This document shows positions 22,727 through 62,093 of a DNA stretch of 64,000 bases, piece by piece. The position numbers were made by a program, and so were the translations under genes. The notes under the pieces are model-generated. The model ran no database searches. It was not told the origin of the DNA and saw only the letters and a program-made list of their open reading frames with translations. This DNA comes from Polytrichum commune. Taxonomy: Eukaryota; Streptophyta; Polytrichopsida; Polytrichales; Polytrichaceae. The stretch covers positions 13,518,001-13,582,000 of the forward strand of contig OX485809.1 of NCBI GenBank assembly GCA_950295325.1. Reading direction: 5' to 3'. The stretch's first letter is position 1. Each line of letters opens with the position of its first letter.

Positions 22727-22929
22727 TGGTCCAAGCAGATAGGATTCCCGGAATCTCAGGAGTTTGGAGTGAAGAAGTACTCACTGGAAGATCGCGGGCA
22801 AGGGGGTGATTTTGACGTGAACGGACAGAGTTGCCCGTTGCCACGTCGCCGGTGGCTATCTACGTGGCCCAAAATTCTCGGTGTAGACCGTTGGCGCACC
22901 CGTTGGCGCCAACGGTGGAGATGCTCTAA

Positions 22930-31290: not shown

Positions 31291-31814
31291 AATTCTAGCC
31301 GGGAAACTTGGTAGTGTGAGCGTAGAGCGGAGAGCGGAAAATTTAGATTTTCTTGGGTTATTTTAAGAGAAGCGGTGCTTATTTCCGTGGATTTAGAGGT
31401 AGTTTGAATTCAATTTGTTGGAAAGGCACCCCATTCCCGTGGACATAATAACCCAAAATTGTTCGGGAAACCAACGGATCCTATAGGCGTGGAAGATTGT
31501 GTTTGTTATCAAACATCTTATAGTCTAGGTTTCAAATGTTTCATATTAAATTAGGGCTGACGTCACCAATTGAAATCAAACATTAACATATGATGAACAA
31601 CTTAAGTGTACATAAATGATTTCCACAAAGTAATAAATTGCCCCAAGTAGGTAGGGTACTCTTTCCAAGTACGATTAGATTTCAATAATTCCCATACACA
31701 AAATATTTGATGGCCGAGAAAATTTTCATGAAGTTAGGTGCCAAACTCAAGACATACAAAAATGTGTATTCAATTCAAGTAGCTATATACAACCATCCTC
31801 TACTTTATTTCCAT
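31291..31814. other. No gene; probably leader/LTR area of the truncated copia
   Basis: By position this should contain the 5' leader of the minus-strand copia. I could not identify an LTR edge or primer-binding site with confidence. Confidence 0.25.
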
Positions 31815-32324
31815 CTACACCCTATCGGCCGGGCATGTCCAATATGGGTAAAATGATTCAAAGATCATGCCATAGAACTCCTCCGCACACCAGCAGCTCT
31901 CCAATTCATCCCTTAGCTTAGCCAATGAACGCAATGATAAATCCCCCAAGTCCGACATAAGAATCCTCTGCGAAATTTTTGAGTTGACGTGCCGGCTATG
32001 AGAGAACCACATCATGTTCATTTGAAATTGTGTGATGAGGTTATGTTCGCGTGGCAAACACACCCTTAAGTCTACATTGGGACCCATGGCGTATTCATAT
32101 TGAGCCAAACGAATAGCATTGTACTCCACACTTTTATCCACAACATTTTTCCATGATTTGCAACATAGCCTCAAATCGTGGATTAGAGACAAACGACGTT
32201 GGGTGTCCAATACCGTCTCCTGGCCCGTATTCACATTTGCGGCACCCACCAATAAATTGGGAACTAAGACTGACAATTGTACATCTAGGTCCAGATGTAG
32301 TACGAGTGGCTCCATGACGTGCAA
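31815..32324 (-). CDS. F-box-like hypothetical protein (possibly partial)
   Basis: 169 codons. The start LHLDLDVQLSVLV and later RRLSLIHDLRLCCKSWKNVVD resemble an F-box (LPxDVxxxIL ... LRxVCKxWxxxV) with an extra loop of about 25 residues between the halves. F-box proteins recruit substrates to SCF ubiquitin ligases. No LRR, Kelch or other partner domain follows; the rest is helical without recognised motifs. The composition is like a real protein and there is no interruption, but the N-terminus might extend in another exon. It ends against the 94-bp array, which lies upstream of it. Identification is tentative. Confidence 0.4.
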   Translation of the reverse strand: MHVMEPLVLHLDLDVQLSVLVPNLLVGAANVNTGQETVLDTQRRLSLIHDLRLCCKSWKNVVDKSVEYNAIRLAQYEYAMGPNVDLRVCLPREHNLITQFQMNMMWFSHSRHVNSKISQRILMSDLGDLSLRSLAKLRDELESCWCAEEFYGMIFESFYPYWTCPADRV

Positions 32325-32389
32325 TTAGAGCGATCTTCCACAACCTAATGAACAAATGATGAGGTACACAAATGAACTCAAAAATTCAG

Positions 32390-33885
32390 TGAATTTTGGC
32401 CAAGGCCTTAACCTCAACCCAAAGACTCAAGAATGCTTAAAATTTGGCCAAGGCCTTAATATCAAACACAACATACAAGAATCTGAAATTTGGCGAAGGC
32501 CGTAACTTCAACCCAAAGACTCAAGAATGCTTAAAATTTGGACAAGGCCTTAACCTCAAACACAACATACTAGAATATGAAATTTGGCCAAGGCCTTAAC
32601 CTCAACCCAAAGACTCAAGAATGCTTAAAATTTGGACAAGGCCTTAACCTCAAACACAACATACTAGAATCTGAAATTTGGCCAAGGCCTTAACCTCAAC
32701 CCAAAGACTCAAGAATGCTTAAAATTTGGACAAGGCCTTAACCTCAAACACAACATACTAGAATCTGAAATTTGGCCAAGGCCTTAACCTCAACCCAAAG
32801 ACTCAAGAATGCTTAAAATTTGGACAAGGCCTTAACCTCAAACACAACATACTAGAATCTGAAATTTGGCCAAGGCCTTAACCTCAACCCAAAGACTCAA
32901 GAATGCTTAAAATTTGACACAACATACTAGAATCTGAAATTTGGCCAAGGCCTTAACCTCAACCCAAAGACTCAAGAATGCTTAAAATTTGACACAACAT
33001 ACTAGAATCTGAAATTTGGCCAAGGCCTTAACCTCAACCCAAAGACTCAAGAATGCTTAAAATTTGACACAACATACTAGAATCTGAAATTTGGCCAAGG
33101 CCTTAACCTCAACCCAAAAACTCAAGAATGCTTAAAATTTGGACAAGGCCTTAACCTCAAACACAACATACTAGAATATAAAATTTGGCCAAGGCCTTAA
33201 CCTCAACCCAAAGACTCAAGAATGCTTAAAATTTGACACAACATACAAGAATATGAAATTTGGCCAAGGCCTTAACCTCAACCCAAAGACTCAAGAATGT
33301 TTAAAATTTGGCCAAGGCCTTAACATCAAAAACAACATACAAGAATCTAAAATTTGGCCAAGGCCTTAACCTCAACCCAAAGACTCAAGAATGCTTAAAA
33401 ATTGGCCAAGGCCTTAACATCAAACACAACATACAAGAATCTGAAATTTGGCCAAGGCCTTAACCTCAACCCAAAGACTCAAGAATGCTTAAAAATTGGC
33501 CAAGGCCTTAACATCAAACACAACATACAAGAATATGAAATTTGGCCAAGGCCTTAACCTCAACCCAAAGACTCAAGAATGCTTAAAAATTGGCCAAGGC
33601 CTTAACATCAAACACAACATACTAGAATCTGAAATTTGGCCAAGGCCTTAACCTCAACCCAAAGACTCAAGAATGCTTAAAAATTGGCCAAGGCCTTAAC
33701 ATCAAACACAACATACTAGAATCTGAAATTTGGCCAAGGCCTTAACCTCAACCCAAAGACTCAAGAATGCTTAAAATTTGGACAAGGCCTTAACATCAAA
33801 AACAACATACAAGAATATGAAATTTGGCCAAGGCCTTAACCTCAACCCAAAGACTCAAGAATGCTTAAAATTTGGCCAAGAGACA
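32390..33885. repeat. Tandem array of ~94-bp composite units
   Basis: Two related half-units of 46-48 bp alternate: one has AAGGCCTTAACCTCAACCCA...GACTCAAGAATGCTTA, the other AAGGCCTTAACCTCAAACAC...ATACTAGAATCTGA, both starting AAATTTGG. About 16 composite units are present by length. Some units near 32905-33070 lack the second half's start, showing internal deletion and spread of variants. Every half contains AAGGCCTT. It is not coding; frames through it are chance. Confidence 0.9.
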
Positions 33886-34329
33886 CACCTGAAGTCAAGA
33901 ATGGAGCCTTCCTCAAATGTGGCCGAGAGATGCCCAAACAAAACTTGCATTTGCTATATAGCATTTGGGATTGGAAGACGGCCAATGTGAATGGGGTGCA
34001 CGTGGAGACAAACATTATGGGTATGATATTTGATTGGATTCCACCAAATTAATGGGGTGAATCTTAACTTGAGTGGGGGTTGGAATCAATATCATAACTC
34101 CAACTAAACACCAATGTGAAAAGGATCCACGTGGATATGAAAATCAATGGTATATTAGTAGTTCCGATTGCACGAGATTGAAGGGGTGAATCTTAACTTG
34201 AGTGGGGGATGGAATCAATAACATACTGACCATAATGGCACATGCAATATCTGATGCCAACCCAAACCCCCTACCCTTAACCCCTCAACTAGAGAAATAG
34301 CAACCCAACTAGCAAGACACAATCAAGTC
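33886..34329. repeat. Spacer with a 130-bp direct duplication
   Basis: GGGGTGAATCTTAACTTGAG plus TGGGGG occurs at about 34054 and 34184, each followed by a TGGAATCAAT stretch. The upstream parts share GTGCACGTGG/GATCCACGTGG and AATGTGAA motifs. It separates two different tandem arrays. No gene. Confidence 0.5.
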
Positions 34330-35612
34330 CACAACTAACACCATCCACATTAATTCAAAATGTGGTCCTAGACAACTAGTACCTTACCCTCTGGGAGCTG
34401 AGAGCCCACCCAAACATAAAATCAACCATCCACAGTAATACAAAATCTGGTCCCCTTCAACTAAGACCTTACCCTCTTGGAGCCGAGAGACTACCCAAAC
34501 ATAAAATCAAAGCATTTACATTAATCCAAAATCTGGTCCTAGACACCTAAGACCTTACCCTCTTGGAGCCGAGAGCCTAACCAAACATAAATTCAACCAT
34601 CCACATTAATTCAAAATCTGGTCCCCCTATAACTAAGACCTTACCCTCACGGAGCCGACAGCCCAACCAAACATAAAATCAACAATCCACACTAATACAA
34701 AATTTGGTCCTAGACACACAAGACCTTACCCTCTCGGAGCCGAGAGCCTAACCAAACATAAAATCAACCATCCACACTAATACAAAATATGGTCCTAGAC
34801 ACACAAGACCTTACCCTCTCGGAGCCGATAGCCTAACCTAACATAAAATCAACCATCCACATTAATTCAAAACATGGTCCCCCTATAACTAAGGCCTTAC
34901 CATCTCGGAGCCGAGAGCCTAACCAAACATAATATCAACCATCCACACTAATACAAAATCTGGTCCCCTTCAACTAGGACCTTACACTATCAGAGCCGAG
35001 AGCCTAACCAAACATAATATCAACCATCCACACTAATACAAAATTTGGTCCCCTTCAACTAGGACCTTACACTATCAGAGCCGAGAGCCTAACCAAACAT
35101 AAAATCAACCATCCCCATTAATCGAAAATCTGGTCCAAGACAACACATACTAAGCTATCTGGTCCATCTCGGAGCCGAGAGCCTACTTGAAAATCAAATC
35201 AACTATCCACATTAATCCAAAAAGAAGTCCTAGACACCTAAGGCCTTACCCTCTCGGAGCCGAGAGGCTACCCAACCATAAAATCAACCATCGCCATTAA
35301 TCCAAATTTTGGTCCCCCTATAACTAAGACCTTGCCCTCTCGGAGCCGAGAGCCTACCCAAACATAAAATCAACCATCCACAGTAATTCAAAATCTGGTA
35401 CTTGACAACACATACCTTACCCTCTCGGAGCCGAGAGCCTACCCAAATATAAAATCAACCATCCACATTAATTCAAAATCTGGACATCTAAGACCTTACC
35501 CTCTCGGAGCCGAGAGTCTACACGAACACAAAAATCTAACATCCACATAAAATCAATATTTGTTCCTTGACAACAAATCCATTACCTTAGAGCCGAGAGC
35601 CTACATAAACAT
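34330..35612. repeat. Hairpin-unit tandem array, left block
   Basis: Units of about 70-75 bp contain CTCTCGGAGCCGAGAG, an inverted repeat (CTCTCG/CGAGAG around GAGC), followed by CCTACCCAAACATAAAATCA and CATCCACATTAAT. About 18 units by length, each diverged by a few bases. It is the same family as 45637-50830, on the other side of the methyltransferase-like gene. Confidence 0.92.
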
Positions 35613-35778
35613 AGATTTGACAACTCGAAATAGAGAATTGAAATCAAACACCAACATAAGACGAAGAATGAGATATATGGGATTGCAAAAGGTAAATGGA
35701 AATTCATAAAATAAATTTATAAAAACTTTAACAAAACCAATACATATGAGATGGAGGTTAGAGATGCACGAGGCGTAC

Positions 35779-38700
35779 TCAACCACTTGGACTACTATGT
35801 CTATCACTATCCTGGCCCTGCTCGGCCTCTATGTCTAGGAAATCCAATACTAGTTTGTTGAAAGGTCGGATACGACTAGGAGGTGGGGACGGTGCTTCCG
35901 CCAAAAGATGGGCAAGCTCCGCAGCATATTGAAGGAGCTCGAACGTCGTCGAAGGCGTTGTAAACATGTCCGCATTAAGGACGCGGATGGGACTCTCAAT
36001 TTGAACTCTGGACATAGAGGAAAAGAAAGAAAATCATGAGCACATGTTTCTATCTCAAATATTTGAAGATACAAATGAAAACAAGATAGAATCAAAAAAC
36101 GAACTTGCTCACAAAGCAAATCGAAATTGCGCTTCGCCATCTTTCGAGGAGGGGAGCAAAAACAGAGCTTTGTTGAGGGGCGGCGGGTTGAGAGGTCTGT
36201 TCTTGGTCAGACTCACGAATGGGGAGGAGGATGGACTTGAAGATATCAATGTCCGATTCAAGCGCCACAATATGGCGTTGAATGGAGCGGCATACTATGA
36301 TAGAACCTCCTAAACCAACAAAATGCAAAGGGGTTAGGATAAGGAAATGAATAGGGAAACGAATACAAATGAAATCAAAAAATCAAAAAAGAAAGAAATG
36401 AAAAAACAAGAGAAGAAGAACGAACCAACGCCACACTGCCAATCCAATATAATGTCGTCATTGTTCGTGAGGGCGGAGAAAAAGATTGAGAAGAATTCGG
36501 GGCGCTTTTCACGAACACTTCTCCAAGGCACCCCGTCGTCCCTCACGGATTGGTTCTTCACATCGGTGAAGCTGTTGAGCCAACCATCTCGTTTGAGATT
36601 GTAACCCATGTCCTTGAAGTCCGAGGTCCGGACATTCAAAACGGACCGATTACGCACAAGCACCTTGATGAAGAATTTGCGAGTTTGCACAAATTTTTAA
36701 TGATAGAATTAGAAAAACAGAAATGAAAGAAATAAATTACGAATGAAAATGGATGAAAGACAAGAATAAATTCCAATTCAGAAGAACTAGTGGGCGACTG
36801 GAAATCGAGGTCATTCATGCCGAACCAGTCCTCGGCAACATAAAATTCCTCTGTATGAGCCCAGTTATGAATTGATCTCGAAACTTCAGGATTGGCAGCG
36901 TGTGCAAAGACGATGACGCCATTGTCATGAAGGTTGGCATTCGCAAATGCAAACAAAACCTCGAAGTAAGTGGAAGATCGGATGTTCCACTAAGAAACAT
37001 CCAAAGATGAGGCAGAGATGCCTGGGACACGTAGGTTCTTGGGCACATTTGCAAACAAGAGATCAATACCCGTGTGAACCTTAGGCTTGGTGTTTGGACG
37101 AGTACGCCCCGCTCCAACCTGAAAGAAAAAAATGCAAAGAAAATAAAAAACAAAACAAATGTTCAAACACATTGAATGAAAGACTGAAACAATAAAAATG
37201 CACACAAACCTTGGTTAGGAAGTCTTGTATGCGGCGGTAGGCGGGAGGTGGAACCTTGGTTTTTATGAGATCCTCAATGAGCTCCCCCATGTCCACATTT
37301 TCAATTAAAGAAAGGCTAGAGGACTTCTCCGAGGAAGTTGCCGATGTATCAGGTGCAACAACCTTCCGCTTGCGAGGCACCGATGGGATGGTTGCACCGC
37401 TATGAGAAGGAACAACAACCGGATTGGGTAGGGCAGCAGAAGGAGTGGCGGTTGGACTTCCAACCACGGTGGTGACTGGAGCAACATTGCGTTGAACGGA
37501 GGCCTTGGCGTAAGGACGTGTAGAAACTTGAGAAGAGGCATGGGCGAGAACCTTCTTACCTCTGTCTTTACCTTTGACGGGTGGAACATCCTTCTCAACG
37601 GATGGAGGAGCGGGATTATCTTCATCTGGCTCCTCCTCCAAATCAATGACGTCGGGGCCGGAGCTTACAAGGCTGCTGTAAAGGGATTCTTCCTCATCGG
37701 GCACGAATCCACGAGAGCAATCAAAGTACCAACCACCAGCCTGCAAGCGTAAGGATGGAAACTTTGTGACTTGCATGGCCGTATAGACACAAAGATTGGA
37801 GTTGACATCGATCCAATCGAAGAGGAAAGTGGGCAAGGACGAAGGAGGCAAAACATTCTTCACAACGAGCTCGCAGTGAATGTACCTGGAAAATGAAGAA
37901 CATGGAGTAAGAAAATGGCCGTGGAAAGGAAAGGAAACGAAATGAATATGCAAAAAATGAAAACGGAAAAGAATACCGGTAAGCAACGCGTTTGATTGCG
38001 ATGGGGCCCTCCTCGAACTCCAAGAGGTCAAGGCCTTTACTAAATATCAAATCGCCCTTGTCGTCAAAATACACCCGAAAAGCCTTGTCCCACAAAATGA
38101 GCCTCCAATGCTCAACATAATTGGACGGGTGCAAAATCTCCATAGAAATCCAATCAATGTCCACGGACAACTCGTTCTCAAACGATGCAATCTCAGCCTC
38201 AACCCCCTTCTCCAACTATGTTAAGAGAGACCAACAATTAGAATTGGAAAAGAATGAAACAAACAAACGAGAAGAAATAAAAAATGAAGATGTACCCGTG
38301 CCCAGAAAGAAGCTTTGTTAAGCCAGTCGTCAAGGACTTTCTCACGGAGAGGAATAGCAGAGGGGAATTTGTTTTCGATTTTGACCTTGGCGGGAGAATT
38401 CCACCACCGAAGCCACTTGGCTTTGAAGGAGGCATCGACATGGGTGGTTGCCACCTTTTGGAGTTTTTCTATTATCATATCGGGGACGAGGAAGGTGGAA
38501 AAATGGCGGTCAATCTGCAACATATGAGAGTGTAAGCAAAGATGAAACAAGAAGGAATGAAAGAGGAAGTTATAAGCCAAAAAGGAAACAAATGGAAGGC
38601 GCACCTCGTAGAAGAAGTCTTCGCCATTATCCTTGTGGGCGACGGAAATAAACTTCTCGAAATTTTGAGACCGAATATTCTTGATGAGTTTCTCTTGGGC

Positions 38701-39971
38701 TTTGATCATAGTATCCCAAATTTTGGGAGCAGACCTGAGGGACTCGGGTGTATTTTCCTGGTACAACCTTGTTGCAGTGTCGGCTGCGTTCGACAACTCT
38801 CTCTAACACACACAAAGAGGAGTGTAAATGAATGACAATAATCAAGAGGAGAAAGACATAAGCATAAGGAACAGAAGGAAGAATTACCTTATACAAGAAT
38901 TTGACGAAGACGTCCAAGGTAAGAGGATACCAAGTTGGAGTTTTAACCATTTTGGTCTCGCACGTCTTGTAGTCTCCGGGAGAAATGAGGTCCTTGAACT
39001 CCTCAAGTTTCATCTTCCCAAATGTTCGAATGCGGAGTAGCTTGGCGGGAAGGTTGTCCTTGACATGGTCGTGCTCAATGGACCTACAAGGCATAAGTAA
39101 GCGAGAAACAAAAGAGGAAAAATATTGAGAATAAAAAACAAACAAAAAAAACCCAAACAAAAACAAACTTACCAGTTGATGTCATTCATGGCATTAAGGA
39201 AGACGGCAGTACAGTTTCTCGGGTCGACAACAATGCAGTCCACGGAGATGTGCCAATCTTTGTCCATGGAATGGTGCTTGTTAATGTGTCTAAACCAAGC
39301 CGTCAAGCGATGATTTCCCTCCCACACGAAAAACATCTTGCCAACAAAGTGAGAGAGGTCGGAATCCTTTTCGAGCATGGAATCAAACTCATCATTGGCC
39401 TCCTTCCATAATGAACTCCAGGAGGCCCAAATGTCGTCCGAAACATGAAGCACCTCATCAAGATTGTTGTAGGGAGAGACATATATGGCACGGTCGCCGT
39501 CACGGTAACCCATGACGAATTCGTTTTGCAACCGAGCAACATCGACCTCGCTGATGGGCCGAACAAGAGGAAGACATTGCAAGCGGCACAATGGAATAGA
39601 GAAACGTGACTTAGCAAGAGGTTTGATTCGAACCCGATGAATCATAGCGATAGAGTCTTCTTTTTGCGATCTCCGAATCTCGAGCTCAGTCTCATCCGGA
39701 TTTGACTCATCAAGAGGACGCACAAGGTCGGATACATGAGGTGAATCATTCTACAAGGGTGGACACAAAATCATGAGGTTAAGCCCAAAATATATTGAAA
39801 GCCAAAGAACCGGAAGTGCTTGGACACAAAAGGAAAAGTTTACATAGAAAACACCTTTCCCCGTTGGACATCAACTAGTGTATCAACTTCCACCTCGGCA
39901 AGCTCCAATTGAACATTACGGTCATTTGTGGATGGCTCCTCGGAGAGAATGAGATCCATAGCTTGTGACTC
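35779..39971 (-). pseudogene. ParB-like / N6-N4 DNA methyltransferase-like multi-exon gene, one in-frame stop
   Basis: Eleven minus-strand exons fit GT..AG junctions: 39855-39971, 39173-39750, 38888-39083, 38605-38802, 38296-38514, 37977-38215, 37210-37885, 36741-37118, 36426-36663, 36113-36309 and about 35779-36007. The first ten keep phase. About 1,080 residues. Near residue 186 is FFVWEGNHRLTAW, like the GxHR core of ParB/sulfiredoxin domains. Near 766 IDLLFANVPKNL sits where class-beta methyltransferases have DPPY, followed by NGVIVFAH and FYVAEDWFGMNDL. Near 920-950 come WRSVREKRPEFFSIFF and LDWQCGVGGSII...RHIVALESD, like KPxEF and the SAM-binding FxGxG plus acidic residue. TAG at 36990-36992 interrupts exon 8, and the last junction is uncertain. 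The DPPY change suggests catalytic loss or a divergent family. Residues 530-700 are low-complexity with a KRK nuclear-type signal. Confidence 0.6.
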
Positions 39972-40004
39972 CTACACAAATTGAAGCCCAAAACAAAAAA
40001 CGAA

Positions 40005-40031
40005 AGTTAGACATTACCCTCTCGGAGCCAA
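40005..40031. repeat. Half of a hairpin unit, cut by the CACTA element
   Basis: ACATTACCCTCTCGGAGCCAA is the left part of a hairpin unit; it continues at 45637 with CAAGAGTCCATCC once the CACTA element is removed. CAA is present on both sides as the duplicated target. Confidence 0.85.
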
Positions 40032-42768
40032 CACTACTACAAAACACGTCTTTTATTCCAACACCTACTTCACTACATGTCTTTTACTACTATAAACAGT
40101 GATTGGAGGAATTATAGAAATCCACATGGGCTCATTTGATGTCCAAATTAACTTTGCGGAGTCATAGTAGTGAAGTGGGACAACAATTCAGTTGGGAACG
40201 CTCTTGTAAACATGTTTGGGAACGTCCAGTAGAACGTGCATGACTGTGGGTAGTGAAGTGGTCCACATGGAGAGAATGTTAAGTCCAATTGTCATGTGTT
40301 TCAGGGTTTTAGACAGAATACTCATAAAAAATAACCCGTTAGTGTGTATGAGTGTGTGAGTGTGAGGGAGTATGTGAAAGTATGAATGAGAATGTGTTTG
40401 AAAGTGTGAATGACAATGTATGTGTGTGAGTATGAGAGTGTGAGAGTGTGAATGAGAATATGTGACAATGTGTGTGTTAGTGTAAGAATGTGAGTAAGAA
40501 TGTGTATGTGGGTAGGAGTGAAAATGTAGTTGTGAGTGTGAGAATGGAAGTGTTGATGGACGCCGTGGGTCGTTTCTTTGTAATTAGCTAAGAAGACTCA
40601 CGATGAGACATCATGTAAATTTATATTCGCTTGAGAACTACCGTGTCTCATTAATATGCACGGTCTCGAATTAGTAATCTCTCTCTTCTCCTTGTGATAT
40701 GAATATAATTATTGGAGTGAACACATTCTCATTATCATATATTCTCACTCTTAATGTAAGGCATCATTGATAATAAGAACAATTAGATTAGAGAAGGTTT
40801 CAAGAGGTATAACAATATCGTTGATAACAATATAATTTTCAATAGGTTACATAAGTCTTCAAGGAGTTAAGTTCGTAGTTCATAAACGTCAATCACATAC
40901 TTTATAATATTGCTCCATAACTTATAATAATAAGAAAGATATTGTGTTATTGAATCTTCGTTTTTAAGCTCAAGTGTTACTACTTATAGTATTGTAACTT
41001 TGATATGTGTAACATATAGTGGTTATAACCTTATATCCAAAACACCATTGATTGTTTTGTAATGTCACGTTTTTATTTCAAAGTGTTTCTTGATGACGAG
41101 AGTAATTATATCTCTCTTGAGTTTTGCTCAAGAGAGAGAACTTTTCTCTTTGATAGTTAATCGTTCACTTGTAATGACATCCAACAACTCACAAGAATCT
41201 TAAAGGTAAGAAGTTTCAATAACAATTGTTGTGAGTAGTTAATCAATCAATCTTTGTTAGTATCAATAAAATCTTTGTTACTATCTTTATAATTTACTTA
41301 AAGAATTGAATATGAGTAAGTTCAACTATCATCCATAAGTCACATAATATATATATATATATAGGTAGTTTATATTGAGAAATTTCTCTCAATTAATTGT
41401 ATCTCTTTCTTAGTAATATTTAAGAAGTCTTACTCTCAATTTAATTGAAATATGCATGCAAGTCTTATCAATTCAATCTTAATCACTCTATCACTTTATA
41501 TTTGGATAATTCCCTTTTGAGGAGTTCAATGATAACTTCCACTTTTAAGAGACAATCTTGTTTCCTTTATTCACGTTGTATGAATTGACGTTTGCTTCAT
41601 CATAACAACATCTCTCAAAGTTCCATTGATTCTCCGAATATCCTTGAGCGCTTTGTTCTCACCCTCACACACTAATCTTTTGAGTTCTTGCTCAAAAGAG
41701 TCTACTCTTCTTTCGGTTGCTTAATCACTTAAGTTCCAAATACCGCTTAACAACTTGTAAGTCCAATTGAGAGAGAGAGATAGATCACACATATTTGTGA
41801 AAAAGATAGTATATTGCAAAAGTTTTTTGAGAGGAGAGATACAAAAGGAACTCAAGTGTTTTTTACATTCAAATTTAAGATAGCCTCGTCGTATTAAAAA
41901 TGAGGTGTAGTCTCCTAAAAATGTTCCCTTTATATAGTCTTTTCTTTCTAACCCAAAATCTATATTTAAAATGGTTGTTAACTCCACTTTTCTAGATAAC
42001 TACCTATCTCCGACATAGGTAGATGATATCTATTATAAACGGTTATAACCGTTTTACCACTCTAATGTTCGTCTTTCTAAGATTCCACTATATCTTTGTC
42101 GTGGCTACATTCCAAATCATTTTTGAGAATCCATCAAATCTTCATATTGATTGATTTAAATTCCAATGATCATACTAGTAGAATGTACCATATTCCTATA
42201 TACTCCTTAATACTTATATACTCCTCGTAATTGCTTAAATATTTTTCTTTCATAATTGTCCTTGAACAAAATCTCGTATACTCATACTAATGGAATGTAA
42301 TCCTAGTCCTATATACTTTCTAATATCCCTATATACTCCTATATATTCCTCATATAAGACGTTTCATACTTACATAGTGATCTTCTATCTCTAAGTTCTA
42401 AGTTTCCTTCACTAGGCTGCTGGGGACCCATTGCCGTGGGTAAGGGGCCCTATAATCGCGCGACTTCCTTGTATATGCGTGGAAAGGGGGCCTAAAACCG
42501 TGGCCGAGGGCTCTCCGAGTTCCTCTTGTCTTCGGTGCTCATTCTTCGTTTCGGTGGTGATTCCTTTCTCCTCTTGGTGATGTATGCTGTCGTTGGCTTC
42601 TCCATTGTGCCTCTTTTCTCTCTTATAATGTTGTTACTCAACAAGTGTAAGTGTGGATATGAGAGACAAACCAAAAGTGAGGAACTTAGAGTGTGGAACC
42701 CAATATTTGCAATATTAGGGTTTACCATAAATGTGTGAGGAAATAAATGAGAATGTATGTATGACTAT

Positions 42769-43356
42769 GAGAGTGCTAGTGTGGATATAAGAGATAAATC
42801 AAAAGCGAGGAACTTGGAATATGCAACCCCATGTCTTCACCAAATCCAATGACAAAGGTATGTTTATATATTTGTGTGAATGAAAATGTGTATGTGTGTG
42901 TGAATATATGTGTGAGTGTAATATAAGAATGTTAGTGTGGATATGAGAAATAATCCAAAGGTTAGGGTTTAGAATGTGTATCCTAATGTCTTCACCAAAT
43001 GCATTGACAAATGTATGTGTATATTTGTATGAATGAAAATGTGTGTGTGTGTGTATGAATATATATATATATATATATAAGTGTAATGATAAGATTGTTA
43101 GTGTAAATATGAGAAATAATCCAAATGTTAGGGTTTGGAATGTGTAACCTAATGTCTTCACCAAATGCATTGACAAAGGTATGTGTATATTTGTATGAAT
43201 AAAAATGTGTGTGTGTGTGAATATATATGTGAATGTAATGATAAGATTGTTAGTGTGGATATGAGAAATAATCCGAATGTTAGGGTTTGGAATGTATAAC
43301 CTAATGTCTTTACCAAATGCATTGACAAATGTATGTGTACATTTGTATGAATGAAA

Positions 43357-43399
<43 letters not shown>

Positions 43400-43400
43400 A
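42769..43400. repeat. Four tandem units of ~150-168 bp with (GT)n inside the CACTA element
   Basis: Units starting near 42769, 42929, 43097 and 43249 share GTGTGGATATGAGAAATAAT, CTAATGTCTTCACCAAATGC and a GT-rich tail. The last unit runs into a (GT)n tract at 43359-43397; an (AT)n tract is at 43060-43079. They include TTAGGGTTT but not as a telomeric repeat. Confidence 0.8.
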
Positions 43401-44468
43401 AAGAGGGGACCTAAACCAAAGCGTATACGTCTGAGTGAAGACGAAAAATTAACTTTGGAGGCCGGTGCAATGCTACAGAAATGTTACATTCTCACGAAGG
43501 GGGGTTGCATTATTCTGAGTGTTTATGCTAAGTTATATTTTTATGTAAACATAACTCCACATGGTGAAGTATCACTGTAGCCAGTATACAATAATGGCCA
43601 TTGTCGTATTTTTTTACTACCCGTAGTCACTAACGCTTACTACGTATAGTTATTGGCCTGCAACATAGTTGTCCTATATTACTAGAAGCAGTAATGTGAT
43701 AGTCATAAAGCCGTGGAGTGTTTAGACATTAGAGATGGATTTCAAGAGATATACATTTATGTAAGAAGTGGTGCATACTAAGAACCAGCTGTAGGAAATT
43801 CTAAAATTAGGAAATTCTAAAACTTTCGGCTATGTTCGGTAGAACTAACATTAATGTCATTCTCTACATTAGTTTACTATGCATTAATCAATGTAAGGCT
43901 AAAATGGTTGAATAAACATTGCATAGAAATTGAGGTCTAGCCCATCAAAAACATTACTGCACATAATAAACATTACTGGACATAGTAAACACTACTGGAC
44001 ATGTCATAATAAACATTACTTGACATAGTAAAGAAAAACTGACATAGCAAAGTAGATATGACGACAATGTAACTTTAGTACTTTGGATTGAATATTTCTT
44101 TGATCTGCAAATATCAACACCAGCAAATTAGTGTGATTCGTGCTTAAAATTTGGAACAGTAACATATGTACGTGGGAATTGTGCAGACTACGGGGGACTT
44201 GGTTTACCTGCGTGACTATGATTCTCCGGATTCGAAAGCGAAAACCATTGGGAAGGGTGTAGTTCAAAATGTAGCAGGTGGGATGCTGCATGGGAAGGTG
44301 ATTGGCAATGGTTATGTATCATTGGCCGTCACGGAGTCACTTGAAGACGACTATCCTTTGCTCGAACCTCTCACTGGAGACGACCCTCCAGTGACTACTA
44401 TTGGCAAAGCGAAGGGCCATTACATTCTTTGGTCAAGCGAATGTGTAAATTTATGTGCGGCTACGTGA
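43384..44468 (+). pseudogene. CACTA transposase (TNP2-type) C-terminal remnants
   Basis: At 43398-43470 a frame reads KRGPKPKRIRLSEDEKLTLE, like the KRGP start of the C-terminal region in plant CACTA proteins. At 44166-44468 a second frame reads GKVIGNGYVSLAVTESLEDD, then YPLLEPLTGDDPPVTTIGKA and KGHYILWSS, resembling the terminal G..VG....V.V......LP.P.....T...A.G....WP block. The DDE core is absent. These fragments fit the CACTA ends that enclose them. Confidence 0.5.
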
Positions 44469-46390
44469 GTGTGGAGTGGATTTGTAGACCTAGGTTGATT
44501 TGCAGACATTTGGAATTCAGTGTTTACCATTGTTAGAAGCAATTTGTGAAACATTCATGACACTATTGGATGAATATGATTTGGCTTTTGAACTAAATGA
44601 TCATGTTTGCGATGATCCTCGTATGATAAATATCAATATATTGTTAATGCCATAAATTTATGACTATGTTGAGTCAGCCGCATGTTACTAGTTGCAGTAA
44701 ACGCGCACAGTTGCAGCCTAATCATGCCACTTAGCGCAGTCGATATTCACTGCAGTACCAGTACTATACACTAAAGACATGTGAAGACCACATAACTTCA
44801 CAACGTACAACAAAATACCGGAATTTGTTGTCTACATTACGTTACATAGTATTATAGATATCACGACTTCAAGTAAGAAATATATGCCATCTAAATATGT
44901 ATTCACTCTTGTTAGTCACAAACACTTACTACGTACAGTTACACATACACTTGGCAATATCATGTATACTTCACTGCTAGTAATACACAAAAAAGACATT
45001 CGTGAACCACATGACCTAACAACGTAGATCATAAACCACTGGTTGAGGTAAACATCACTCTAGACAGTGATATTTATATGACGACGTGAAGTAAGAAAAT
45101 ATGCAGTTGTTGTATGTATTTACTACCTAAAGTCAAAGAAGCTAACTACGCAACGTTATTGACTACCCACTTGGTTGTCCGCGATTACTGGAATAAGTAA
45201 TGTGTGAAAATTAATTCAATTAATCTTAACCACGTGGTTACATATTTGTTTCAACCACGTTCTTATCGTTCACTAGTAATTTGGAATGTATGTATACGCA
45301 TTTTTCATTGTATTACTTTGTTCAGTGAAGTAAACAAAACCTTACATGACTAGTGCCCGTGATATTGTATCACTTCGTTGAGTTATATGGACGTGTGTCG
45401 TATCTTACTTATATTGCCAAAACATAGTGAAAAAGGACATGACTCTATGAAGTAAGGCACGCGTCGCAAGTCCAACTTCACTGCCATTGGGAACGTATCC
45501 ATTGGGAACGTCCTGTCCGATATTCCTTTACTGCTTGTCCGGAGCGACTGGTCGTTTTCCACGTTAGTAAAGTCCTGGTTTTCTCACTTGTATGAGTTGG
45601 AAAACCCAGTTGTAAAAGACGTGTTTTGTAGTAGTGCAAGAGTCCATCCAAACATAATATCAACCATCCACATGAATGCAAAATCTAGTCCTAGACACAC
45701 AAGACCTTACCCTTTCGGAGCCGAGAGCCTACTTGAAAATAAAATCAACTATCCACATTAATCCAAAATCAAGTCCTAGACACCTAAGGCCTTACCCTCT
45801 CGGAGCCGAGAGCCTACCCAAACATAATATCAACCATCCACACTAATACAAAATCTGGTCCCCTTCAACTAAGACCTTACACTATTAGAGCCGAGAGCCT
45901 ACCCAAACATAAACTCAAAGCATACACATTAGTCCAAAATCTGGTCCTAGACATCTAAGGCCTTACCCTCTCGGAGCCGAGAGCCTACTCAAACATAAAC
46001 TCAAAGCATACACATTAATCCAAAATCAAGTCCTAGACACCTAAGGCCTTACCCTCTCGGAGCCGAGAGCCTACCCAAACATAATATCAACCATCCACAC
46101 TACTACAAAATCTGGTCCCCTTCAACTAAGACCTTACACTATTGGAGCCGAGAGCCTACCCAAACATAAAATCAAAGCATCCACATTAATCCAAAATCTG
46201 GTCCTAGACACACAAGACCTTACCCTCTCGGAGCCGAGAGCCTAACCAAACATAATCTAAACCATCCACATTAAATCAAAATCTGGTCCCAGACAACACA
46301 TACCTTACCCAAACATTATCTCAAAGCATCCACATAACTTGAAAATTTGGTCCAAGACAACACATACCTTACCCTCTCGGAGCCGAGAGC

Positions 46391-49123
46391 CTATTTGAAA
46401 ATAAAATCAACTATCCACAATAATCCAAAATCAAGTCCTAGACACCTAAGGCCTTACCCTCTCGGAGCCGAGAGCCTAACCAAACATAAAATAAAACATC
46501 CACATTAATCCAAAATCTGGTCCCCTTCAACTAAGATCTTACCCTCTCGGAGCCGAGAGCCTACACAAACATAAAGTCAACCACCCACACTAATTCAAAA
46601 TCTGGTCCCCTTCAACTAAGACCTTACCCTCTTGGAGCCGAGAGCCTACCCAAACATAAAATCAAACCATCCACATTAATTCAAAATGTGGTCCCCTTCA
46701 ACTAAGACCTTACCCTCTCGGAGCCGAGAGCCTACACAAACATAAAGTCAACCACCCACACTAATTCAAAATCTGGTCCTTGACAACACATACCTTACCC
46801 TCTCGGAGCCGAGAGCCTACCCAACCATAAAATCAACCATCCCCATTAATCCAAAATCTGGTCCCCTCCAACTAAGACCTTACACTATCGGAGCCGAGAG
46901 CCTACACAAACATAAAGTCAACCACCCACACTAATTCAAAATCAAGTCCCCTTCAACTAAGACCTTACCCTCTCGGAGCCGAGAGCCCAACCAAACATAA
47001 AATCAACCATCCACACTAATACAAAATCTGGTCCTAGACACCTAAGACCTTACCCTCTCGGAGCCGAGAGCCTACCCAACCATAAAATCAACCATCCACA
47101 TTAATCCAAAATCTAGTCCCCTTATAACTAAGAGCTTACCCTCTTGGAGCCGAGAGCCTACCCAACCATAAAATAAACCATCCACATTAATACAAAATCT
47201 GCCCCCCTATAACTAAGAGCTTACCCTCTCGGAGCCGAGAGCCTAGCCAATCATAAAATGAACCATCCACATTAATCCAAAATCTGGTCCCCCTACAACT
47301 AAGAGCTTACCCTCTCGGAGCCGAGAGCCTAGCCAATCATAAAATCAACCATCCACATTAATCCAAAATTTGGTCCCCCTTCAACTAAGACCTTACCCTC
47401 TCGGAGCCGAGAGCCTACCCAAACATTAACTCAAAGCATCCACATTAATCCAAAATCAAGTCCTAGACACCTAAAACCTTACACTCTCGGAGCCCAGAGC
47501 CTTACCAAACATAATCTAAACCATCCACTTTAAATCAAAATCTGGTCCAAGACAACACATACCTTACCCTCTCGGAGCCGAGAGCCTACCCTAACATGAA
47601 CTCAAAGAATACACATTAATTCAAAATCAAGTCCTAGACACCTAAGGCCTTACCCTCTCGGAGCCGAGAGCCTACACAAACATAAAGTCAACCACCCACA
47701 CTAATTCAAAATTTGGTCCTTGACAACACATACCTTAGCCTCTCGGAGCCGAGAGCCTATTTGAAAATAAAATCAACTATCCACAATAATCCAAAATCAA
47801 GTCCTAGACACCTAAGGCCTTACCCTCTCGGAGCCGAGAGCCTAACCAAACATAAAATAAAACATCCACATTAATCCAAAATCTGGTCCCCTTCAACTAA
47901 GATCTTACCCTCTCGGAGCCGAGAGCCTACACAAACATAAAGTCAACCACCCACACTAATTCAAAATCTGGTCCCCTTCAACTAAGACCTTACCCTCTTG
48001 GAGCCGAGAGCCTACCCAAACATAAAATCAAACCATCCACATTAATTCAAAATGTGGTCCCCTTCAACTAAGACCTTACCCTCTCGGAGCCGAGAGCCTA
48101 CACAAACATAAAGTCAACCACCCACACTAATTCAAAATCTGGTCCTTGACAACACATACCTTACCCTCTCGGAGCCGAGAGCCTACCCAACCATAAAATC
48201 AACCATCCCCATTAATCCAAAATCTGGTCCCCTCCAACTAAGACCTTACACTATCGGAGCCGAGAGCCTACACAAACATAAAGTCAACCACCCACACTAA
48301 TTCAAAATCAAGTCCCCTTCAACTAAGACCTTACCCTCTCGGAGCCGAGAGCCCAACCAAACATAAAATCAACCATCCACACTAATACAAAATCTGGTCC
48401 TAGACACCTAAGACCTTACCCTCTCGGAGCCGAGAGCCTACCCAACCATAAAATCAACCATCCACATTAATCCAAAATCTAGTCCCCTTATAACTAAGAG
48501 CTTACCCTCTTGGAGCCGAGAGCCTACCCAACCATAAAATAAACCATCCACATTAATACAAAATCTGCCCCCCTATAACTAAGAGCTTACCCTCTCGGAG
48601 CCGAGAGCCTAGCCAATCATAAAATGAACCATCCACATTAATCCAAAATCTGGTCCCCCTACAACTAAGAGCTTACCCTCTCGGAGCCGAGAGCCTAGCC
48701 AATCATAAAATCAACCATCCACATTAATCCAAAATTTGGTCCCCCTTCAACTAAGACCTTACCCTCTCGGAGCCGAGAGCCTACCCAAACATTAACTCAA
48801 AGCATCCACATTAATCCAAAATCAAGTCCTAGACACCTAAAACCTTACACTCTCGGAGCCCAGAGCCTTACCAAACATAATCTAAACCATCCACTTTAAA
48901 TCAAAATCTGGTCCAAGACAACACATACCTTACCCTCTCGGAGCCGAGAGCCTACCCTAACATGAACTCAAAGAATACACATTAATTCAAAATCAAGTCC
49001 TAGACACCTAAGGCCTTACCCTCTCGGAGCCGAGAGCCTACACAAACATAAAGTCAACCACCCACACTAATTCAAAATTTGGTCCTTGACAACACATACC
49101 TTAGCCTCTCGGAGCCGAGAGCC
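46391..49123. repeat. 1,366-bp segmental duplication inside the hairpin array
   Basis: 46391-47756 and 47757-49122 appear identical over the stretches I compared, including rare variants such as AGCCCAGAGCCTTACC (about 47492 and 48858) and CTGCCCCCCTATAACT. The shift is exactly 1,366 bases. This is a recent unequal exchange, or an assembly duplication. Confidence 0.8.
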
Positions 49124-49667
49124 TACCCAAACATAAAATCAACCATCCCCATTAATCCAAAATCTGGTCCCCCTATAACTAAGACCTTACCCTCTCGGAG
49201 CCGAGAGCCTACCCAACCATAAAATCAACCATCCCCATTAATCCAAAATCTGGTCCCCTCCAACTAAGACCTTACACTATCGGAGCCGAGAGCCTACACA
49301 AACATAAAGTCAACCATCCACATTAATTCCAAATCTGGTCCCCCTATAACTAAGACCTTACCCTCTCGGAGCCGAGAGCCCAACCAAACATAAAATAACC
49401 ATCCACACTAATACAAAATCTAGTCCTAGACACACAAGTCCTTACCCTCTCGGAGCCGAGAGCCTACCCTAACATGAACTCAAAGAATACACATTAATTC
49501 AAAATCAAGTCCTAGACACCTAAGACCTTACCCTCTCGGAGCCGAGAGCCTACACCAACATAAAGTCAACCACCCACAATAATTCAAAATCTGGTCCTTG
49601 ACAACACATACCTTAGCCTCACGGAGCCGAAAGCCTACACTATCAAAATCAAAAGCATCCAAATAAC

Positions 49668-50450
49668 TTGAAAATTTGGTCCCCTTCAACTAAGAACCTA
49701 CCCAAACACAAACTCAAATCATCCACATTAAATCAAAATTTGGTCCTACACAACACATACCTTACGCTCTTGGAGCCGAGATCCTACCCAAACATAATCT
49801 CAAAGCATCCACATAACTTGAAAATCTGGTCCCCTTCAACTAAGAGCCTACCCAAGCATAATCTCAAAGCATCCACATAACTTGAAAATCTGGTCCCCTT
49901 CAACTAACAGCCTACCCAAGCATAATCTCAAAGCATCCAAATAACTTGAAAATCTGGTCCCCTTCAACTAAGAACCTACCCAAACACAAACTCAAATCAT
50001 CCACATTAAATCAAAATTTGGTCCTACACAACACATACCTTACGCTCTTGGAGCCGAGATCCTACCCAAACATAATCTCAAAGCATCCACATAACTTGAA
50101 AATCTGGTCCCATTCAACTAAGAGCCTACCCAAGCATAATCTCAAAGCATCCACATAACTTGAAAATCTGGTCCCCTTCAACTAACAACCTACCCAAGCA
50201 TAATCTCAAAGCATCCAAATAACTTGAAAATCTGGTCCCCTTCAACTAAGAGCCTACCCATACATAAACTCAAATCATCCACATTAAATCAAAATCTGGT
50301 CCTAGACAACACATACCTTACGCTCTTGGAGCCGAGATCCTTCCCAAGCATAATCTCAAAGCATCCACATAACTTGAAAATCTGGTCGCCTTCAACTGAG
50401 AGCCTACCCAAGCATAATCTCAAAGCATCCACATCACATTCAAATCTGGT
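49668..50450. repeat. Three 278-bp higher-order units at the array edge
   Basis: Blocks starting near 49668, 49946 and 50224 repeat with a 278-bp period. Each contains three or four degenerate basic units with CATCCACATAACTTGAAAATC and only one hairpin remnant (CTCTTGGAGCCGAGAT). Open frames repeated at this period are a by-product. Confidence 0.8.
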
Positions 50451-50969
50451 TAACACATACCTTACCCTCTCGGACCCGAGAGCCTACCCAAGCATAAAGT
50501 CAATGCATACACACTAATTCAAAATCTGGTCATAGACACCTTAGACCTTATCCTCTCGGAGCCGGGAGTCTACCCTATCATAATATCAACCATCCACACT
50601 CATTCAAAATATGGTCCTAGGCAACAAAGACATTACCCTCTCGGGGCCGAGAGCCTACCCAAACTTCATATCTACCATCCACACTGATTCAAAATCTCGT
50701 CCCCTTCAACTAAGACCTTAGCCTCTCGGAGCCGAGAGCCTACCCAAACATAAACTCAAAGCATCCACATTAAATCAAAATCTGGTCCTAGACAACACAT
50801 ACCTTACCCTAGATCCAAGATCCTACCCAAACAAAATCTCAAATTATCCACATAACTTGAACCACACACATTCAACTACACAAACATATTTCCATCCATA
50901 CATACAGCTTGAGAATCTTGAATCAATATCCTACTCACACTAAAATGTGGCCGAGAATTTAACCTTGAC

Positions 50970-51411
50970 TCAAGCATTCTGTTGACATTCAAGCATTCCG
51001 TTGTCATGTTTGCTTTTGATTAAATCTTCAAATGCCCATTTTTCATATAACTTGAACAACAATCTTACTATAAGAATGGAATCATCTCTTGTCTCCTCGT
51101 GATACCCGCTTTGATTAGAACTAGTGGGATGCTCGCTCTCTTCCATAGATGGTGCGGGGGATTCACTATCCTCCCGGTCTTCCTCTATCGGCTGCAGATT
51201 CAATTGTCGTTTCGAAGATCCTCTATTGCTCTCTCCACCTGTGCTTTGCACGTCTGATGGGGTGCCTCTTCCCTCTATGTACGATTCTTCCTTCTTCGAT
51301 TATCTCCGTCTCCTCTGTTTCAAATTGCTGAAACTCAATCCTCCCTTTCGCTTCTTCCGCTTCGTTCCTAGATCTATTGTGGAATCTGTATTGTGCTCTG
51401 GTTCCTTCATG
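50970..51411 (-). pseudogene. Candidate 5' exon of the methyltransferase-like gene (or an orphan ORF)
   Basis: From an ATG at 51411 a minus-strand frame reads MKEPEHNTDSTIDLG and then KRKKRKGG, a nuclear-localisation-like basic cluster. A TAA at 51300-51302 interrupts it, then the same frame continues with KRQLNLQPIEEDREDSESPA and on to 50970. A 19-bp tandem duplication near the end (GGAATGCTTGA/AGAATGCTTGA) shifts the frame into a stop just before an AAG|GTTAAA donor-like site. Its strand and place, upstream of the hairpin array and 39971, suggest the first exon of the gene at 35779-39971. That would need an intron of about 11 kb and is unproven. Confidence 0.3.
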
Positions 51412-51510
51412 TGTGTGTCCTAGTTCCCCTCTGCTTCCCTTTTCGTTCTCTCTACTCTCTCAGCATCCCTATCCTTCGCTTCCAAAAGGACCCTTCCCCA
51501 ACCCTCTCTG

Positions 51511-51520
51511 ACCTATATAG
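51511..51520. promoter_or_regulatory. Palindromic TATA box between divergent genes
   Basis: ACCTATATAG contains CTATATAG, its own reverse complement. It lies about 100 bases from the plus-strand ATG at 51617 and about 100 from the minus-strand ATG at 51411, so it could serve either direction. No transcription data support it. Confidence 0.4.
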
Positions 51521-51616
51521 TGCCAGTGTTCAAGGGTTAGGGATTACAGATTTTTTGGTCACTGTTACTTGTTTACCCCGTTTGGTTTATTTTCATATTC
51601 CCCCCTCTCTTTGTCC

Positions 51617-54264: not shown

Positions 54265-54456
54265 TATTGGAAGATAGTGTTAGGTTGCAAAGGTGACATT
54301 GTCCCATATGGGTTGTCTACGCTGGTCCTAACCCATACATATAAATAAAGGCATAAGGGGAGGAGCCCATCACTCTCTCCATTGTATGCAACCATTGTGT
54401 ATTGTGTTCTTGCTTCCTACGCTGATCTCTTTGCTTCTTCCTCTCATTTCCCAATA
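54265..54456 (+). repeat. copia 5' LTR
   Basis: 192 bp, TATTGG...CCAATA. Contains a TATAAATA box at about 54340-54347, expected promoter of the element. Confidence 0.95.
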
Positions 54457-54472
54457 GGTTATGGGCCCACTT
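54457..54472 (+). promoter_or_regulatory. Primer-binding site matching the anticodon arm of initiator tRNA-Met
   Basis: Directly after the 5' LTR, GGTTATGGGCCCAC is complementary to GTGGGCCCATAACC, which is the anticodon-arm sequence of plant initiator tRNA-Met as I know it. Most plant copias instead match the 3' end of this tRNA (TGGTATCAGAGC). Drosophila copia uses an internal half-tRNA primer of the same kind. Confidence 0.75.
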
Positions 54473-54698
54473 TGCTTTAGAGCTTAGAGATCAACTTAGG
54501 AAGAGGTAGGAGAGAGCCGGATCTGATCGGAGGCGATTTGGAGGTGTTTCAAGCTTTTGGTGGAGTTTTGGAGTTTTGGAGCACTTTTGGAGCGCCTTGG
54601 AGCATTCTTGGACACTTGGACCAGCGTGGAGGACACCTTAGGTTGAGGTTCATTGTATCTTGAGTGTTTATGTGAGATCGATTCGCATTTTGAGGTTT

Positions 54699-56115: not shown

Positions 56116-56196
56116 GTGAGAACCTTGAATTAATTCCAAAGTTTAAAATCAAATTCTAAAATTTTCGAGGGTTTTTTAGCCCTCGTCGTACATTAA

Positions 56197-60268: not shown

Positions 60269-60447
60269 TGTTAGGTTGCAAAGGTGACATTGTCCCATAT
60301 GGGTTGTCTACGCTGGTCCTAACCCATACATATAAATAAAGGCATAAGGGGAGGAGCCCATCACTCTCCCCATTGTATGCAACCATTGTGTATTGTGTTC
60401 TTGCTTCCTACGCTGATCTCTTTGCTTCTTCCTCTCATTTCCCAATA
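60256..60447 (+). repeat. copia 3' LTR
   Basis: 192 bp, same ends as the 5' LTR, one visible difference. Confidence 0.95.
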
Positions 60448-61464: not shown

Positions 61465-61625
61465 AATTCTTCTCAGCCTAGCACTACATTAGGCTATGAT
61501 ATATGTGTCCAATTCTGGACCTCTTGTGCACTCATAATTGATTGATATAATAAATATATAATCTCATGGATTATTTTTATTCACTTCAAAATTTTGTATT
61601 ACAATGTTTCCTATGTCTATCAACT

Positions 61626-62093
61626 CTATTTCCGTTTTGCATAATTCTTGGATGATTCCGAGGGAGGTGGACCCGGTCGAAGCAAGTCAATATAAGAAAC
61701 TGTTTTATCTCTCATTCGATCCTTCAGTGGACGACGATGCGGCGACAAGCCTCTCATCCTTTCGCGAAATGAAAGAGACTTTGAAGATTCGCCTACCACC
61801 TTCACCTCCTGCTCCGTTTCGTTCGGTTTGTCTTCATCCAAATCAGCGTCTTTCTCCGGCACATCTGCCTGCCTCTTTTCATTTTTCTCATATTGTTTCT
61901 GCTCCTCCTACACCCTCCACCTCTATGCTTGTGTAGACTGCGAAAATGGAGTCATCTTTTAGTCATCACTACTTCGATTTCCAGCAGCAAACTCAAATTC
62001 CGGCGATGGATTAAAGGGAATATGAGGATCTCCTAGACTTCTAATTTCCTTCTCCCCTCCTAGTCCAGCAAACATGTCTCTCTCATCTCCCAT
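61626..62093 (-). pseudogene. Unrecognised minus-strand coding relic
   Basis: From an ATG at 62093 a 44-codon frame reads MGDERDMFAGLGGEKEIRSL and ends at 61959. In another frame, from about 61895 to 61626, a charged stretch includes KNEKRQADVPEKDADLDEDK and SYIDLLRPGPPP. Together they could be one damaged ORF. If the retroelement seen at the right edge is real, this would be its Gag region by position, but I recognise no Gag motif. Confidence 0.25.

Follow-up and report, generated by a model that had tools for sequence, protein, structure and literature searches.

The question raised by this locus is what a gene resembling a prokaryotic DNA methyltransferase does in a plant genome, flanked by tandem arrays of palindromes. 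The gene lies on the minus strand of a stretch of 64,000 nucleotides of Polytrichum commune (contig OX485809.1, positions 13,518,001 to 13,582,000), hereafter called the window. A first-pass annotation, made from the letters alone, had described it as a ParB-like plus N6/N4 methyltransferase-like gene inside a hairpin satellite, an architecture that plant mobile DNA had domesticated or carried. We analysed the window together with the genome it belongs to (408 Mb, 64 contigs). The methyltransferase-like gene belongs, as an accessory gene, to a very large DNA transposon with terminal inverted repeats (TIRs) in a streptophyte. The host was regarded as a streptophyte because LEAFY genes are present: the LEAFY SAM domain (PF01698), which we take to be a streptophyte marker, was found above cut-off at 4 places in the genome and in none of 14 control genomes. 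The idea of carriage in streptophyte mobile DNA was borne out by TIRs, 10-bp target-site duplications, a transposase-like gene and many copies, and the word "domesticated" was dropped, since the gene belongs to a transposon.

Between positions 39959 and 35779 of the minus strand, 11 exons bordered by GT and AG join in constant phase to give a reading of 1,086 residues (Table 1). The in-phase joining proposed earlier was therefore correct, while the number of exons was 11 and not ten; the peptides quoted at that time, GNHRLTAW, IDLLFANVPKNL, REKRPEFFSIFF, LDWQCGVGGSII and RHIVALESD, are all encoded by the spliced reading. The exons were found again in other copies in the genome, and by a loose criterion, which asked for a GT and an AG no more than a few bases away from where they were predicted, 74 of the 76 testable junctions (those after exons 2-8 in 12 other copies) were in agreement. 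A genome-wide search for homologues, which the first-pass annotation had suggested along with structure prediction, gave 1,287 rough candidates for exon 2, and all 150 that were scored matched, with 62 to 100% identity and E values from 1e-131 to 8.4e-77. The search with exon 9 had 720 candidates, with 150 matches scored; both candidate counts are rough lower bounds. Because the 150 scored exon 2 matches reach such values, the spliced gene is not a product of chance, and the spliced reading of the window gene is real. Ratios of nonsynonymous to synonymous substitution (dN/dS), computed from exons 2-6 and 9 for seven copies between classes and for five close pairs, were 0.08-0.24 in 15 of the 21 between-class pairs, the remaining six being saturated. 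The methyltransferase-like protein is maintained by purifying selection. The window copy itself is probably broken because of an in-frame TAG in exon 8, the single one in its reading, and the second gene of the element, the transposase-like one, is interrupted as well. Copies without stops in the exons found do exist, namely L015 with all 11 exons and L027 with exons 2-11.

The boundaries of the element were obtained by comparing copies. Three copies with about 99% mutual identity (L003, L004 and L005) have a common 3' end, ...CTCACATACTTGAGTTTCCC, after which unrelated DNA follows, and copies C, D and F share the 5' end GGACGACACT..TATGTGAGCG...; the TIRs were recognised by comparison of these 5' ends. 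The two ends of the element are inverted repeats of each other except for the outer bases, which differ. The 3' end pattern had 106 matches in the genome and the 5' end pattern 266, and the reversed controls had 0. Copy C measures 19,379 bp (19.4 kb) and is bordered by a perfect 10-bp duplication; the window copy is collinear with it, and its own duplication, AATTCTAGCC and AACTCTAGCC, is 10 bp long with one mismatch. From 100 listed ends of either kind 44 end pairs were derived, lying 12.6 to 48 kb apart with a median of 17.5 kb, nested insertions counted in. Ten further pairs were picked from the 44 and their printed flanks were read: nine show a 10-bp duplication, eight of them perfect and one with one mismatch. 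The pair on contig C2 near 11.6 Mb had no duplication and was counted as a miss; it may be a wrong pairing. A scored copy of the methyltransferase-like gene was situated upstream on the same strand, at 20 kb or less, for 71 of the 100 listed 3' ends. Placement statistics here and below are based on 100 of the 106 3' ends, 100 of the 266 5' ends, and 150 scored copies each from 1,287 and 1,718 candidates. Near the left end of the window copy (31318-34001), stretches 18643-18710, 18704-19052 and 19056-19320 of copy C recur in the same order, the first two being split in the window by a 94-bp tandem array (32390-33880).

The transposase-like gene is divergent to the methyltransferase-like gene. 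It consists of a 766-residue frame followed by a 555-residue frame in copy C and of three parts in the window. For 91 of 150 methyltransferase-like copies it lies at most 40 kb upstream and on the opposite strand (median distance 9.1 kb), against 5 with it upstream on the same strand; in 200 rounds of random placing the mean was 1.5 and the highest count 5. The label "transposase-like" is based on this regular place, on a CxC...CxH stretch near the end, and on D, D and C..H motifs recognised by eye. A Pfam search of the gene gave no transposase model and a single match to FERM_M (0.026), under the cut-off of that model. A genome scan with the MULE (Mutator-like element) transposase model PF10551 had 271 candidates, and the gene was not one of the 150 that were listed; its hhalign probability to two MULE frames was 0.1%, and the fold predicted for a stretch of it was unusable (pLDDT, the predicted local distance difference test score, 37). 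In the absence of any matching transposase family model, the sole pointer to the superfamily is the length of the duplication, 10 bp. Mutator-like elements make target duplications of 8-11 bp and Sola elements of 4 bp. The TIRs and the 10-bp duplication are in keeping with Mutator-like elements, although the MULE transposase profile was not matched, and the duplication suggests that the element is Mutator-like. The last 18 Mb of contig C4 (41-59 Mb, about 4% of the genome) hold 44 of the 150 copies scored for the methyltransferase-like gene and 41 of the 150 for the transposase-like gene, many with stops; this is possibly a non-recombining or heterochromatic region.

Searched alone against Pfam, the window protein had no match. 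As a family it gave weak best matches, located at motif I of DNA methyltransferases (DpnA at 0.01): N6_N4_Mtase was reached in Pfam at 0.085 by 3 of 6 members, and a methyltransferase in PHROGs at 0.0017 by 6 of 6. In a phage collection 52 records had E < 10; among the 20 listed the best had 0.02 and 14 were annotated as methylases or methyltransferases. A tyrosine phosphatase, AraA_N and a tail protein also appeared as unrelated weak matches, and CARM1-type protein methyltransferases at 0.2-0.4 in a search with the joint profile described below; these do not fit and were rejected. A genome search with PF01555 revealed two further multi-copy relatives, the L047/L048 family, with a last frame of 577 residues, and a third type, L049. 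Pfam's cut-off for this N6_N4_Mtase model, 26.7 bits, was exceeded by L047 (34.2), L048 (37.3) and L049 (32.6, through the motif I part only). With the window-family profile the L047 protein was matched at 1.5e-82 and pieces of L049, whose protein was assembled by hand from partial exons for this comparison, at 3.3e-53, with 0 of 2,000 shuffled sequences matched, and blastp of the window protein against L047 gave 5.8e-60. A joint profile of all three families, in which L048 stood for the second family, found DpnA at 2e-9, CcrM at 2.6e-4 (over positions 2-212, nearly the entire domain) and MboIIA at 0.0046, and hhalign to four phage and contig enzymes gave 92%. Because of the sisters that pass the cut-off, the joint profile and the hhalign result, the METHYLTRANSFERASE domain is read as a permuted N6/N4-type methyltransferase, and judged from its sequence the protein has, as its C-terminal part, a permuted, class beta DNA methyltransferase domain of the N6_N4 type. 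The prokaryote-like, class-beta ancestry claimed in the first-pass annotation holds, given that the sisters passing PF01555 are homologous to the window gene and that the joint profile finds DpnA and CcrM. The domain is like DpnA, CcrM and MboIIA in the order of motif IV before motif I, in its GxG and in the profile match; it differs from these PF01555 enzymes by the replaced DPPY and by a long N-terminal region in which no domain is recognised. The members of the further families, L047, L048 and L058-L061 with fewer introns, and L049 and L057, are about 24-35% identical to the window gene.

The catalytic motif of N6_N4_Mtase, [DNS]PP[YFW], does not occur in the readable copies of the window family. 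At the DPPY position D[VIM]PE was read in 15 of 16 readable copies, and NVPK in the window copy. The alignment of this motif took 17 of 20 gene models (L003, L007 and L020 were left out); L017 had no readable motif and is outside the 16, and L023 is without exon 2 there through a false exon 1 match. The copy counts are not independent because several copies are near-identical. Among the six copies of the L047 family, DIPD was found in L048, L058, L059 and L060, DIPY in L047, and EIPN in the decayed L061; DIPY was rejected as the state of this family, as four of the other five copies have DIPD and one EIPN. In L049 the position reads DLPE. The GxG of motif I, which follows the catalytic motif, is mostly kept in two families (QCGVGGS and VGTGAS), though a few copies deviate (L016, L019), and is less clear in L049 (TATGGV). 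A catalytic motif that is conserved yet altered suggests a DNA reader or a changed chemistry, as far as can be judged from sequence. A DNA methyltransferase on a viral contig (L084:1407-2234) has ADIPYNL where the plant family has ADIPENL, one residue apart.

The N-terminal region carries WEGNHRLTAW or WDGNHRFKAW, which resembles a ParB motif, and it is in this sense of motif resemblance that we keep the term "ParB-like"; as a domain assignment it found no statistical support in profile searches. In hhalign against ten ParB domains from small contigs and phages, GNHR fell on the expected motif with a probability of 0.2%, the sequences used including few diverse ones. Against PDB one query (A2) had no hit and another (A3) found a homing endonuclease at 0.36 and others more weakly. 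No ParB was found in Pfam, where DUF4708 appeared at 0.037 in 1 of 6 members, and PHROGs gave no ParB match. Scans of viral contigs and of species genomes found no relative and nothing for ParB. The structure prediction did not yield a usable fold (exon 2 folded alone, pLDDT 44). In the genome, PF02195 was found at 4 places, all on the small contigs C10, C12 and C23. These contigs (L041-L046) are prokaryote- or phage-like, with ParB domains at Pfam level, and in C12 and C10 the ParB domain is in one frame with an N6_N4 methyltransferase; they are probably contamination or symbionts. The methyltransferase frame of C10 (L043) has a long insert ending in ...VTHNC between conserved parts, which by eye is intein-like.

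What had been called a hairpin satellite is situated inside the ends of the element; this holds for the window copy and also for copy C, where the sequence is a different one. The palindrome CTCTCGG-AG-CCGAGAG accounts for 39 of 41 sites with exact arms in the window and for 14 of 14 in the 97% copy L001. Within the 76-82% class, eight copies have at least 3 sites of CTCTCGG-AA-CCGAGAG (L006, L007, L020, L022, L023, L025, L026 and L028), and GGCCTCGG-AT-CCGAGGCC is found at all 103 sites of the three 66% copies. In most array-bearing copies the palindrome type goes with the gene subfamily. Arrays also occur in introns 4 or 5 of the accessory gene (L006, L022, L023), and the unit length varies: 85 bp, 127/128/179 bp, and about 96/107 bp. 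Conservation measured on units selected by the palindrome was biased, and it was replaced by units chosen through anchors outside the palindrome. With 35 of 35 such anchors, in three arrays, the palindrome was more conserved than the remainder of the unit, with means of 0.735 against 0.668 in the window, 0.762 against 0.597 in copy C and 0.679 against 0.574 in L006. Over the genome CTCTCGGNNCCGAGAG occurs 2,550 times and its reversed pattern 2 times; for AGGCCTCGGNNCCGAGGCCT the numbers are 2,181 and 0. Out of 50 listed sites each, all on contig C1 and counted by hand, 48 and 45 were in or near the listed gene copies or ends of the element. Copy C has one stretch (18565-18643) that is about 80% like the 85-bp unit of the window array, so the latter may have grown from one ancestral unit.

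As to function, we rank first an accessory protein that would bind the palindromes of its own element. Its methyltransferase domain, altered or dead, would probably be used as a DNA reader, and the binding would keep the element unsilenced or help its mobility, as VANC does for VANDAL elements of Arabidopsis. The anti-silencing or similar reader role stands first because VANC is the closest functional parallel, and we would give it an even chance of being right; a co-factor of transposition and an active marking enzyme are ranked after it. Several results weigh against the palindrome reader. The unbiased advantage in conservation of the palindrome is modest, and because the anchors overlap it amounts to three observations rather than 35. 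The link between palindrome and subfamily has exceptions (the centres in L024 are exclusively AC and AT, and the 87% copy L019 has a single AA site), single odd centres occur in several copies, and most fetched pieces of the 87-92% class are without an array. The five close copy pairs had dN/dS of 0.37-1.42 with few changes, and saturation affects the six between-class pairs. No transposase family model matches the transposase-like gene. Finally, the palindromes could serve the transposase instead. In such a co-factor role the arrays would be bound by the transposase or by the methyltransferase-like protein in synapsis and excision, with no part in anti-silencing, which would suit the position of the arrays between the ends in both delimited array-bearing copies (window copy and copy C) and the divergent layout of transposase-like and accessory gene. 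Against it, the palindrome centre shifts with the subfamily, and three of the copies examined have arrays within accessory-gene introns too, as in VANDAL; we think a co-factor possible without being probable.

An active amino-methyltransferase, marking its own element with N6-methyladenine (6mA) or N4-methylcytosine (4mC) at or near the palindromes, would agree with membership in the N6_N4_Mtase domain family, the mostly kept GxG, the strong selection, and DIPY in one copy of the L047 family and in the viral-contig relative L084. Binding together with modification of its own sequence is also what the authors of the Ectocarpus work propose for their protein in the available part of the paper (PMC12477816). 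Such activity is doubtful because DPPY is replaced, an acidic residue standing at the aromatic position in 15 of the 16 readable copies of the window family, in four of six from the L047 family and in L049. We further regard as unlikely that the altered methyltransferase, possibly fused to a ParB-like clamp, reads the palindromes of its own element as ParB reads parS arrays, covers the element and protects it against silencing by the host, with the protein and the centre of the palindrome changing in step between subfamilies. If true, a methyltransferase fold would have turned into a DNA reader, and the algal genes with ParB and methyltransferase might act likewise. A captured or domesticated host methyltransferase gene, associated with the transposon by accident, would account for introns and purifying selection; against the 150 scored copies, the common ends, the 10-bp duplications, the regular place opposite the transposase-like gene, and the TIRs and duplication of the window copy itself, it appears very improbable. 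Chance open frames joined by eye would explain the empty Pfam search with the single protein, and are hardly conceivable beside the recurring exons and junctions, the dN/dS values and the family-level profile matches.

The architecture of ParB with methyltransferase has, in our assessment, already been described for algal transposons, and the changed active site found here appears to be new. In the available part of its report, the Ectocarpus element Sola1-1_Ec32 (21.5 kb) carries, opposite its transposase, a gene for a protein of 1,104 residues with ParB-like and N4/N6 methyltransferase parts, and green and red algal cases of ParB with methyltransferase are cited there (PMC12477816). As far as that part goes, the two systems are alike in being very large DNA transposons, in protein size (1,104 against 1,086 residues), in the place of the gene opposite the transposase or transposase-like gene, and in the N4/N6 methyltransferase domain; the ParB-like part is stated there and is at motif level in the present gene. 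Our element differs by its LEAFY-bearing host and its 10-bp duplications, and our family may differ by the altered catalytic motif and the subfamily-linked palindrome arrays, the algal proteins being compared by their published description only. The VANC targets, according to the accessible text, are tandem repeats upstream and in introns that vary between related elements; VANC has DUF1985/DUF287 regions, and its binding and the loss of methylation have been shown (PMC5735166). VANDAL elements, which are Mutator-like, resemble ours in encoding an accessory protein and in carrying a short motif in tandem repeats, some of them intronic, that diverge between related elements. They differ in that no methyltransferase domain is named for VANC in that text, and our family is known from sequence alone. 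The N4CMT of bdelloid rotifers is a host gene with an SPPY motif, said in the part of the paper available to be without eukaryotic homologues (PMC8885841); both are permuted, bacterial-type N6_N4 methyltransferases in eukaryotes, ours being a high-copy transposon gene. An epigenetic-type or methyltransferase gene is likewise carried by the transposons with TET/JBP or SET genes (PMC12730594) and by virus-integrated Mariner elements with methyltransferases (PMC3627910), as described in the available portions, while domains, transposon groups and hosts differ. A literature search over titles and the starts of abstracts, with subscription papers mostly outside its coverage, gave no report of the gene in a land plant.

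The family would be a second candidate anti-silencing system, unrelated to VANC, and may represent a self-protection system of a selfish element. To our knowledge, the escape of transposons from plant silencing is understood in detail for few systems, VANC among them. The intact-looking copies, with three matched pairs of protein class and palindrome, suit tests of specificity. The family extends a little-known class of algal transposon genes to a LEAFY-bearing streptophyte and enlarges, by a sizeable group, the set of eukaryotes and elements that carry permuted amino-methyltransferases of bacterial type. The retention of an acidic residue where the catalytic aromatic one would be expected raises the question whether methyltransferase folds are reusable as DNA readers.

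Table 1. Features of the transposon copy in the window (positions count from the first letter of the window; TRF, Tandem Repeats Finder).
Feature	Positions	Strand	Remark
Left target-site duplication AATTCTAGCC	31291..31300	.	9/10 positions match AACTCTAGCC at 62567-62576
Left TIR GGGAAACTTGGTAGTGTGAGCGTAGAGCGG... (3' end relative to methyltransferase-like gene)	31301..31340	.	resembles 3' end of other copies
Entire transposon copy (31.3 kb, nested insertions included)	31301..62566	- (orientation of methyltransferase-like gene)	TIRs, duplication, collinearity with copy C
Tandem array, 85-bp units with hairpin CTCTCGGAGCCGAGAG, 3' of gene	34340..35603	.	TRF, palindrome positions
Exon 11 with stop codon	35779..36007	-	
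Exon 10, remainder of motif I (GS) and RHIVALESD	36105..36309	-	
Exon 9, start of S-adenosylmethionine (SAM)-binding motif I (DWQCGVG)	36426..36663	-	
Exon 8, catalytic motif IV site (NVPK here; family D[VIM]PE), in-frame TAG	36741..37118	-	
Exon 7	37210..37885	-	
Exon 6	37977..38215	-	
Exon 5	38296..38514	-	
Exon 4	38605..38802	-	
Exon 3	38888..39083	-	
Exon 2, N-terminal region, WEGNHRLTAW (ParB-like by motif only)	39173..39750	-	
Exon 1 with start codon	39855..39959	-	
Tandem arrays, 85-bp (and related 64/150-bp) hairpin units, between the two divergent genes	45648..50810	.	TRF, palindrome positions
Main open frame (739 aa) of the transposase-like gene, which is divergent to the methyltransferase-like gene	51521..53740	+	
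Transposase-like gene, second part, in-frame stops in window copy	53741..54274	+	
120-bp tandem array separating second and third transposase-like parts	54696..56112	.	TRF
Coding region of a retrotransposon, presumably Copia-type from its protein sequence, two overlapping frames, between second and third transposase-like parts	56197..60268	+	
Transposase-like gene, third part, C-x-C...C-x-H SWIM-like stretch by eye	60442..61464	+	
Open frames by right TIR, small third gene?	61626..62114	-	79-90% aa identity to copy C
Right TIR (GGACGACACTCCTATGTGAGCGTAGAGCGG inward)	62533..62566	.	
Right target-site duplication AACTCTAGCC	62567..62576	.	pairs with AATTCTAGCC

The conserved open frames beside the right TIR are perhaps a small third gene of the element; they are short, and in the comparison with copy C both strands score. 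Outside the element, the window contains a transposase frame of the Plant_tran/DDE_Tnp_4 type (19428-20639; PF04827 at 1.1e-79) with a second long frame near it (21485-22780), recognised by eye, and the pair looks like a PIF/Harbinger element. A GCAG repeat (9778-9822) and a 152-bp tandem array (42770-43372) are both distinct from the arrays described above.

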